Source of the DNA: Anaerolineales bacterium
GTDB taxonomy: Bacteria; Chloroflexota; Anaerolineae; Anaerolineales; UBA11579
Reading direction: 5' to 3'
Assembly (NCBI GenBank): GCA_019454165.1
Contig: CP075367.1
Span: 379,971 to 443,970 of the forward strand
DNA length: 64,000 nt
Shown here one piece after another: positions 2,195 to 8,200 of this stretch. Position numbers and translations under genes: made by a program. Each line of letters opens with the position of its first letter. The stretch's first letter is position 1. The notes under the pieces were generated by a model that saw only the letters and a list, made by a program, of their open reading frames with translations, made no database searches and was not told the DNA's origin.

Positions 2195-3640
2195 TTAAGC
2201 CTGCGCTTTTAGCGTGGCCAGATCTAGCGCCTCACGCAGGCTGCGGGCCTCACGAACCTCGATGCCGCTGGGCAGCTCTTCGCTCTTGCGCAGGCGGCGC
2301 GGCATCACGGCGGACTTAAAGCCAAGCGCGGCCGCCTCTTTGAGGCGGGCGGGCGTGTGCGGCACGGTGCGCAGCTCGCCGCTCAGGCCGACCTCGCCGA
2401 TGAGGACGGCATCGGCGCGCAGCGGGCGATCCCAGACGGAGCTGGCGATGGCAGCCGCCAGCGCCAGGTCGGCGGCGGGCTCGCCGATGCGCAGGCCGCC
2501 GACCACATTGACGAAGACGTCTTGCTCGGCCAGGGGCAGGCCGAGGCGGCGGGTGAGTACGGCGGTGATGAGCAGCAGGCGGTTGGTATCCACCCCGTTG
2601 CCGGAGCGGCGCGGGTTGCCGAAGGCGCTGGGGCTGGTGAGGCCCTGGACCTCGACGAGGAGCGGGCGGGTGCCCTCCATGGTGACGGCGATGGCGGAGC
2701 CAGCGGCGTTGACGACGCGCTCGGCCAGGAAGGCTTCGGAGGGGTTGGGCACCTCCTGCATGCCGCGGCCGACCATTTCGAAGACACCCACCTCAGCCGT
2801 GGCGCCGAAACGATTCTTGACGGCGCGCAGCAGACGGAAGGACTGGAAGCGATCGCCTTCGAGGTAGAGGACGGTATCCACCATGTGCTCGAGCAGGCGC
2901 GGGCCGGCGATGACGCCCTCTTTGGTGACGTGGCCGATGAGGAAGACGGCCAGGCCGCTGCTCTTGGCCAGCTGGCGGAAACGGTCGCTGCATTCGCGCA
3001 GCTGGGTGACCGAGCCGGCCGAGGAGTCGATCTGCGGGTCGTAGACGGTTTGGATCGAATCGATGATGAGCAGGCGCGGCTTGATCTGCTCGACATGATG
3101 CAGGATCGCGTCAAGGTTGGTTTCGGTGACCAACAACAAAGAGTCGCTTAGTTGCTTAGTTTCTTGGTCGGGTGGGAGCCAATCATCCGCGGAGTTGCCA
3201 TCGGCAACTCCCGCTGAGCGCTGCAAGCGCTCAGCACGCATCTTGATCTGTGCTGGAGATTCTTCGCCGGAGACGTAGAGCACGCGGCCCTGGGCGGCCA
3301 TCTCCATGGCGGTTTGCAACAGCAGGGTGGACTTGCCGATGCCCGGGTCGCCGCCGATGAGCACCAGCGAGCCGGGCACGATGCCGCCGCCCAGCACGCG
3401 GGCAAACTCGCCGATGGAGAGTGGCATGCGCTCGCTCTCGGCGCCGCCGGCGATCTGGGTCAGCGGTTTGGGGGCCGCGGCGCCGGCGCCGTTGCTGCTG
3501 GCGGCGCGGCGGGTTGGCTCGTCGGCCACCAGCTCTTCGGCGTAGGTGTTCCATTCGCCGCACTGCGGGCAGCGGCCGAGCGCCTTGGCGGCGGCGCGGC
3601 CGCAGCTTTGGCAGACGAAGCGGGTGTGGACCTTAGCCAT
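2195..3640 (-). CDS. radA: DNA repair protein RadA/Sms
   Basis: RecA-family ATPase that promotes branch migration in homologous recombination. It has an N-terminal zinc finger (Cys10, Cys13, Cys24, Cys27), a Walker A motif GGDPGIGKST at 96-105, the RadA-specific KNRFG motif at 275-279, and a C-terminal Lon-protease-like domain. At 481 residues it is some 25 longer than usual. The extra stretch lies at about residues 141-166 between MRAERL and LLLVTETN, where homologues have only a short link. Two perfect DNA hairpins overlap the start of this stretch. Its start overlaps the end of the upstream DinB-like gene by 8 bp, implying translational coupling. Confidence 0.96.
   Translation of the reverse strand: MAKVHTRFVCQSCGRAAAKALGRCPQCGEWNTYAEELVADEPTRRAASSNGAGAAAPKPLTQIAGGAESERMPLSIGEFARVLGGGIVPGSLVLIGGDPGIGKSTLLLQTAMEMAAQGRVLYVSGEESPAQIKMRAERLQRSAGVADGNSADDWLPPDQETKQLSDSLLLVTETNLDAILHHVEQIKPRLLIIDSIQTVYDPQIDSSAGSVTQLRECSDRFRQLAKSSGLAVFLIGHVTKEGVIAGPRLLEHMVDTVLYLEGDRFQSFRLLRAVKNRFGATAEVGVFEMVGRGMQEVPNPSEAFLAERVVNAAGSAIAVTMEGTRPLLVEVQGLTSPSAFGNPRRSGNGVDTNRLLLITAVLTRRLGLPLAEQDVFVNVVGGLRIGEPAADLALAAAIASSVWDRPLRADAVLIGEVGLSGELRTVPHTPARLKEAAALGFKSAVMPRRLRKSEELPSGIEVREARSLREALDLATLKAQA
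3191..3235. repeat. Double palindromic element inside radA
   Basis: Two back-to-back perfect hairpins: 9-bp arms 3191-3199/3203-3211 with a 3-nt loop, and 10-bp arms 3213-3222/3226-3235 with a 3-nt loop. They fall in radA codons about 136-150, at the left edge of a segment that looks like an insertion relative to other RadA proteins. The reading frame is kept. Confidence 0.7.
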
Positions 3641-6802: not shown

Positions 6803-8200
6803 CTAAGCGGCCAGCAGCCGGGCGGCCAACTGCTGGGCCTGGGTGCGGATCTCGGGCATTGCGGTGCTTTCCCACAGCACGCCTTTGAGGGCGGTGCCCA
6901 GCGTGTAGAGGCGCGGGGCAATGGCGCCATCCGGCGCGGCGTGGATGCCCTGGGCCAGATCATCCGCCTGGATGGTTTGGCGGGCGAGCAAGTTTTGCAT
7001 CAGGCGGCTGGGCAGGCGCGCCAGCCGCGTTTCTGAGCCCATGCAGTTAATGACCGCGTCGGCTTGCAGTGTGTGCCCGCCGCTGTGGCTGCGATAGGTC
7101 ACGTTGAACGCAGCGCCGTCGAACTCTATGGCGGTGATGCGGCCTTGCAGGCTGCGCAGCTGGCCGCTGGCGTGCATGGCGTCCAGCGCGGCGGCGCACT
7201 CTTGCGGCATGCGGTGGCGCGACACGTCCCACAGGCGGCGCAAATGGCGCATGAAGCGCCGCTTCTCAGCCGGCGGCAGCTGCTGCCACAGGGTTTGCGT
7301 GCTGGGGCGCAGCGCATCGATGACGGCGCGCCAGTTGCTGCCCTGCTCGGCTGCGGCTTGCAGGTGGCGGCGTATGATGCGTAGCATGGCCGGTAGGGAG
7401 GTAAGGCCGGTTAGTTCTGCCGAAAAGTCTGGATAGCTGTACCCAAGCTGGTGCGCGGCCGGCCACCAGCCGTGGGTGGAGATGGCATAGAGCGGCCCTG
7501 CGTGCTGCTGCCCCTGCAAGCTGAGCAGGGTGTCCACGCCGGTGAGGCCCATACCGATGACCAGGACGCGATCTTGTACGCCGATGCGGCTGGCCAGGTC
7601 TGGCAGCCAGGGATTGTTGAAGTACTTGGGCGCGGCGGCGGCCTGCGGGGTCAGGAAGCCAGGCTGCGGGGGCAGGAAGTTGCCGAAGGCCAGCACGGCC
7701 GCGTCGCTGGTGAGGACGCGGCCGGAGGCCAGGGTGGTTAAAACGGACTCGGGGATTGCTTCGTGCGCAGGCAAGCCTGCGCCTCGCAAAGACGAATCTT
7801 GTGTGGCCACCGCGGCCTGCTCGCCGATCTCAACGTCTATGGCTTCGTCGTGCACCAGCTCGATCTCGATCGAGCCGGATGCGACGGCGGCTTGCAATTG
7901 AGCTTGCAAGTATATGGCGTACAGCTGGCGCGGCACGAAGGCGTCTGGCGCAAAGTCGTGCCCATTCTGCAGCAGCCAGTCGTGGAAATGGCCAGGCTGG
8001 TCCGGGTAGGCGCCCATTTTGTTGGCGGGTACGTTGAGGCGGTGGGCTGGCGTGGTGGTGCCGTAAGCCACACCGCGGCCCATGACGGCGTGCTGCTCGA
8101 CCAGGTAGACGGTAAGCGGCTGGCGAGCCTGGCGGGCCAGCTGCACAGCTAGCAGCGTGCCGCTTGCGCCGGCCCCGATGATGGTGATGGAGTGAGTCAT
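6803..8200 (-). CDS. FAD/NAD(P)-binding protein (COG4529-like)
   Basis: 465-residue flavoprotein with an N-terminal dinucleotide-binding motif GAGASGTLLA at 9-18, RLNVPANKMG near 54-63 (typical of the HCNGP/COG4529 family), and a second GMGLTGVD nucleotide motif near 217-224. It is probably an oxidoreductase or hydroxylase of unknown substrate. Residues about 134-150 are encoded by a palindromic repeat that is read through in frame. The gene ends 3 bp from the convergent VOC-SRPBCC fusion gene. Confidence 0.85.
   Translation of the reverse strand: MTHSITIIGAGASGTLLAVQLARQARQPLTVYLVEQHAVMGRGVAYGTTTPAHRLNVPANKMGAYPDQPGHFHDWLLQNGHDFAPDAFVPRQLYAIYLQAQLQAAVASGSIEIELVHDEAIDVEIGEQAAVATQDSSLRGAGLPAHEAIPESVLTTLASGRVLTSDAAVLAFGNFLPPQPGFLTPQAAAAPKYFNNPWLPDLASRIGVQDRVLVIGMGLTGVDTLLSLQGQQHAGPLYAISTHGWWPAAHQLGYSYPDFSAELTGLTSLPAMLRIIRRHLQAAAEQGSNWRAVIDALRPSTQTLWQQLPPAEKRRFMRHLRRLWDVSRHRMPQECAAALDAMHASGQLRSLQGRITAIEFDGAAFNVTYRSHSGGHTLQADAVINCMGSETRLARLPSRLMQNLLARQTIQADDLAQGIHAAPDGAIAPRLYTLGTALKGVLWESTAMPEIRTQAQQLAARLLAA
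7753..7798. repeat. Palindromic repeat element inside a coding sequence
   Basis: A perfect 8-bp stem (7765-7772 with 7775-7782, AA loop) is nested inside outer half-sites GATTGCTTCGT and ACGAATC. Its layout resembles short interspersed palindromes with GATTGCTTCGT...CGCAATGACG ends that I know from intergenic regions of many bacterial genomes. Here it is inside the flavoprotein gene, in frame. Confidence 0.65.

Follow-up and report, generated by a model that had tools for sequence, protein, structure and literature searches.

Short palindromes that sit in frame within protein-coding genes are known mainly from Rickettsia and from some other REP-rich genomes. Among described repeats, the CGTC-tagged REPs have a terminal CGTC (often TGTC or CCTC), a stem of 8-9 bp that starts with A-T, a loop of 4-5 nt, a 3-nt unpaired tail that is mostly CCA, and dimers that are mainly head to head (PMC3733652). 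In the parts of that survey on which we draw, few of these elements lie in genes and a transposase gene was not found (Di Nocera et al. 2013, PMC3733652). Intragenic REPs are proposed there to be possibly neutral because they are located in flexible linkers or loops. The same parts place the Rickettsia elements RPE-4 and RPE-6 in the CGTC group and list the Chloroflexota for GTAG repeats, not for CGTC.

Here we describe a palindrome that lies inside a flavoprotein gene within the window, the 64,000-nucleotide stretch of an Anaerolineales genome (G000) that was analysed. The host gene (6803-8200, minus strand) encodes a COG4529-like FAD/NAD(P)-binding protein and reads through as 465 aa, so that there is no frame break, as had been claimed. 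The COG4529 label comes from a preliminary description of this DNA and the match to Pfam NAD_binding_9 (E 5e-36) was computed here; NCBIfam returned nothing but matches far under cut-off for this protein. Its closest named relatives are metagenome-assembled Anaerolineales of the phylum Chloroflexota. We consider it highly probable that the palindrome represents a non-autonomous interspersed element of REP-like type that inserted in frame into a surface loop of the flavoprotein.

The plus strand at 7754-7798 reads GATTGCTTCG T GCGCAGGC AA GCCTGCGC CTCGCAAAGAC GAATC. This comprises a constant left arm, GATTGCTTCG (7754-7763), a variable core hairpin, GCGCAGGC-AA-GCCTGCGC (7765-7782), with a stem of 8 bp and a loop of 2 nt, and a constant right arm, CTCGCAAAGAC (7783-7793), which together with position 7794 forms the tag CGTC on the opposite strand. 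A GGG tail on the plus strand (7751-7753) reads on the opposite strand as CCC after GCAATC and is the commonest tail of the family (35/58). The 8-bp core stem can thus be read directly at 7754-7793, and the palindrome first reported is real. The outer half-site ACGAATC that had been counted as part of it varies even among orthologous copies (GACGAATC, GACGGATC, GACGAAGC, GACGGAGC), and the family-wide right end is CTCGCAA(T/A)GAC; consequently, we bound the element at 7754-7793 plus the GGG tail. The sense (minus) strand from 7745 to 7805 folds with -25.1 kcal/mol (z = -3.43), a value equalled by none of 200 shuffles. No Rfam match was found near the window element.

The element belongs to a large interspersed family. 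The genome of 2,241,716 bases contains the exact left arm 63 times compared with 2 occurrences of a reversed control, and 58 of these left arms have a right arm at most 95 nt away and are counted as complete copies, the other 5 being dropped. This number is a minimum because the right arm searched alone (CTCGCAAWGACR) occurs 81 times (control 0). The complete copies are 24-76 bp long and carry 54 distinct cores; of the 52 cores no shorter than 12 nt, 43 form a better fold than 48 of 50 shuffles. With up to one mismatch the window core is present in 7 of 11 congeneric genomes and occurs four times in G000, where its three further places match at 18/18 bases, with exact arms at two and an altered left arm at the third. 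All 11 genomes of the genus contain the left arm, in numbers from 15 to 175, and of 151 genomes sampled from the order 80 show the two-arm pattern; the control matched none of them. A search of the PMC literature, including by sequence letters, gave no description of such a repeat in Chloroflexota.

The family is overwhelmingly intergenic, as its first comparison with intergenic repeats implied. With the window (91% coding) as its training set, a home-made codon-score gene caller places 56 of the 58 complete G000 copies between genes and 2 in frame within genes, one in the flavoprotein and one in a methyltransferase, both backed by Pfam; random placement would put ~53 of them inside genes. The sister species G008 has 3 of 71 complete copies in genes, one of which merely overlaps a gene end by 15 nt. 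Close pairs of copies are 7 head-to-head, 1 tail-to-tail and 4 tandem in G000, and 7, 0 and 6, respectively, in G008. The spacers of the seven head-to-head dimers in G000 measure 27-30 nt; several dimer spacers (L037, L041, L031) carry TTTGCAAA or a near variant and are themselves partly palindromic. Further interspersed repeats were noticed in 234 kb of fetched G000 DNA (L001-L050, L297-L306), namely TCATTCCGA (27 times), AGACCCGCCCCTA (18 times) and GCAGCATGCTGCGCC (13 times), all of which are absent from the window.

The flavoprotein was found in 9 of 61 genomes searched, and comparison of its orthologues reveals the empty site that an insertion would leave in its relatives. The element is present in five of the eight orthologues of the genus (G000, G008, G007, G001 and G002); the site is empty in the other three (G005, G009 and G010) and all eight aligned distant homologues (seven named relatives and G057) are without the element. 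There are, therefore, both other copies in the genome and orthologues that do not carry the segment. The genes clpC and radA lie near the flavoprotein gene in filled and empty genomes alike, so the neighborhood is the same. We infer that the insertion arose within the genus. The genome of G005, which has an empty site, is placed among filled genomes. A clade of filled genomes that leaves out G005 is rejected by clpC and radA combined (AU p = 0.020), which makes loss or allele replacement in G005 likely, not proven; the flavoprotein gene tree alone stays compatible with one gain and no loss (AU p = 0.144). G005 has probably either lost the element or taken up an empty allele by recombination.

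This placement of G005 also bears on a rival account, namely that the patchy distribution arose from related species exchanging filled and empty alleles, by gene transfer or recombination, and not from insertion followed by loss. Exchange of this kind would explain why, in the methyltransferase sequence beside the insert, filled G000 is closer to filled G002 than to its own sister G008. The retained synteny with clpC and radA speaks against it, and it accounts for how alleles spread but not for how the insert originated. We regard it as a plausible account, albeit one that we lean against, and it is compatible with the insertion explanation.

In the host protein, the 45 bp at 7754-7798 encode residues 135-149 (DSSLRGAGLPAHEAI). 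Relative to the empty site of G005 the net insertion is 23 codons (53 versus 30 codons between anchors), more than the approximately 16 residues previously estimated. As these 69 nt exceed the 40-bp element, either the insertion brought in additional sequence or the loop lengthened afterwards. An AlphaFold2 model built from 24 sequences has a mean pLDDT of 88.3, and residues 128-149 (7754-7819, minus strand) are its sole stretch below 50. The element lies within this stretch, as does the greater part of the 23 codons of net insertion, for which the exact position of the gap is ambiguous; the stretch sits between beta strands 120-125 and 153-157. The insert is thus predicted to form a disordered loop of a beta-hairpin.

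The preliminary description called the palindrome domesticated, which would mean that selection has retained the hairpin or the loop peptide for the sake of the protein or its mRNA. Codon comparison appears at first to favor this, since across five species 14 of the 15 third positions in the element's codons are invariant, a number that averages 4.35 and never exceeds 10 across 367 other 15-codon windows. Even among residues invariant in all five species, third positions are invariant at 10 of 11 within the element versus 90 of 270 elsewhere (Fisher p = 1.8e-4). However, same-core copies elsewhere in the genus are equally uniform in their arms, a comparison that chose cores with at most one mismatch and is therefore informative for the arms and less so for the core. 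The uniformity is consequently a property of the element family rather than of the protein, and peptide selection was set back as its cause. At the level of sequence, the conservation points to the element itself and may reflect recent spread, conversion between copies or a constraint on the DNA. Given also that the loop is predicted to be disordered and that the element is absent from the close congener G005, there is no sign that the loop serves the protein, and we consider domestication unlikely. As to the idea that the palindrome arose by chance in a loop prone to vary and has no connection with the interspersed family, the loop region is indeed length-variable among congeners, but the core and both arms of the shared 40-bp sequence recur elsewhere in G000 and the empty orthologues carry none of the element, so that this has a negligible probability.

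In-frame insertion of the REP-like element is paralleled at two other genes. The second in-frame copy of G000 lies in the methyltransferase gene (G000:C1:1140926; L030:1049-1783, minus strand) and is present in three of nine congeneric orthologues (G000, G001 and G002) and missing from G008, G007, G005, G010, G009 and G006. The methyltransferase model, from 8 sequences, is poorer, with a mean pLDDT of 73.9; residues 71-78 and 87-109 fall below 50 and the latter stretch overlaps the insert. In G008, a GcvT-like gene (L262:1125-2444; Pfam GCV_T, E 1.5e-61) contains a head-to-head dimer in frame, and its product exceeds that of the G000 orthologue, in which the site is empty, by 39 residues. The sister species thus differ in which copies are present or absent. 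An automatic procedure labeled 22 G000 and 15 G008 sites as empty, but several proved by eye to be rearranged or diverged, and only site 67887 and the methyltransferase and GcvT-like sites were kept. All three genes translate the tagged arm as S-L-R-G, a number of cases too small for a test.

A palindrome in radA (2195-3640, minus strand) had been put forward as a second embedded case. The palindrome does exist: AGTTGCCATCGGCAACT, at approximately 3193-3209, is perfect apart from its loop and falls in a length-variable linker of RadA. It is single-copy, however, and stands outside the interspersed family, and its exact sequence was found in radA of G000 and G008 only; hence it was rejected as a second instance of the element. 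At the same place in radA, G009 and G010 carry a palindrome that resembles it, with bases changed on both sides.

The cores themselves may be subject to replacement. At the methyltransferase site the G000 core differs from the core of G001 and G002 while the junctions are identical. Between G000 and G008, 25 orthologous copies could be paired (of 58 and 71 complete), copies without both flanks (12 in G000, 36 in G008) being left out; at a threshold of 0.7, 17 pairs have the same core and 8 a different one. Of the differing pairs we set aside three with very short cores (1395852, 1412294 and 805895), one with a weak left flank (1248329) and one that competes with a neighbor (369926, with 370899), which leaves 1065125 and the adjacent pair 1156775/1156813. 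We tentatively suggest a modular palindrome, in which two constant arms of ~10 nt would be recognized and the hairpin between them would be an exchangeable cassette, such that occupied sites, even those in frame, might swap cores and retain their arms and flanks. If true, hairpin turnover would be an ongoing source of new loop peptides.

Copies of the element could spread as single-stranded hairpins, either mobilized in trans by a putative enzyme or copied through template switching at the replication fork. Insertions that break frames or folds would presumably be purged by selection, and the intragenic copies that survive would then be those in frame, in loops and in the stop-free S-L-R-G frame. 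No clean target-site duplication was seen. A profile search for a mobilizing enzyme, made with PF01797 only, gave a single Y1_Tnp match in G000 (37.7 bits); across the genus there is one match in most genomes, with 6 in G004 and 0 in G003. The Y1_Tnp-like domain of G000 (L051:1501-1842) ends a 459-aa frame, and an HUH motif is not visible in it by eye. RAYT was accordingly rejected as the mobilizer, and the 459-aa protein is perhaps a transposase fold in other use.

When set beside the CGTC-tagged REPs, as characterized in the cited parts of the survey (PMC3733652), the family shows a number of likenesses. The end tag is CGTC in 35 and TGTC in 20 of the 57 readable among 58 copies, head-to-head pairs are the main dimer type and few copies lie in genes. 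The first two stem positions are A-T in 44 of 58 copies, with the first pair of the window copy being T-T. The tail is short and unpaired and reads CCC in 35, TGG in 13 and CCA in 1 of 58. A transposase was sought here with PF01797, which gave no RAYT-like candidate to mobilize the family. In contrast to those REPs with their stem of 8-9 bp and loop of 4-5 nt, the outer stem ATTGC/GCAAT has 5 bp, with unpaired bases between it and a distinct core hairpin, and the cores are variable, giving lengths of 24-76 bp. Singletons also predominate, and the host phylum is Chloroflexota. Because the stem and loop measures do not fit, we call the element CGTC-REP-like and not a member of the CGTC-REPs. It resembles the GTAG REP/REPIN elements with RAYT, as far as the cited account describes them (PMC3116915), in having inverted doublets with a short spacer, an extragenic location and a non-autonomous character, but it has no GTAG tag, and G000 showed no RAYT that bears an HUH motif. 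Compared by description only, it is like RPE-4 and RPE-6 in being a short palindrome that keeps the frame of host genes which appear to remain functional (PMC3733652), and the RPE-like combination of in-frame insertion and empty orthologues is found here as well. It differs from them in residing in a genus of Anaerolineales with just 2 of 58 copies in genes. This family extends the described in-frame palindromes to a genus of Chloroflexota, and it adds orthologous sites in both the filled and the empty state as well as evidence that the cores vary between arms that stay fixed. With approximately ten sequenced species that include filled and empty alleles, a dimer present in one sister only and possible core exchange, the genus allows one to test how palindromes move, which loops accept them and whether the arms or the hairpin hold the signal.
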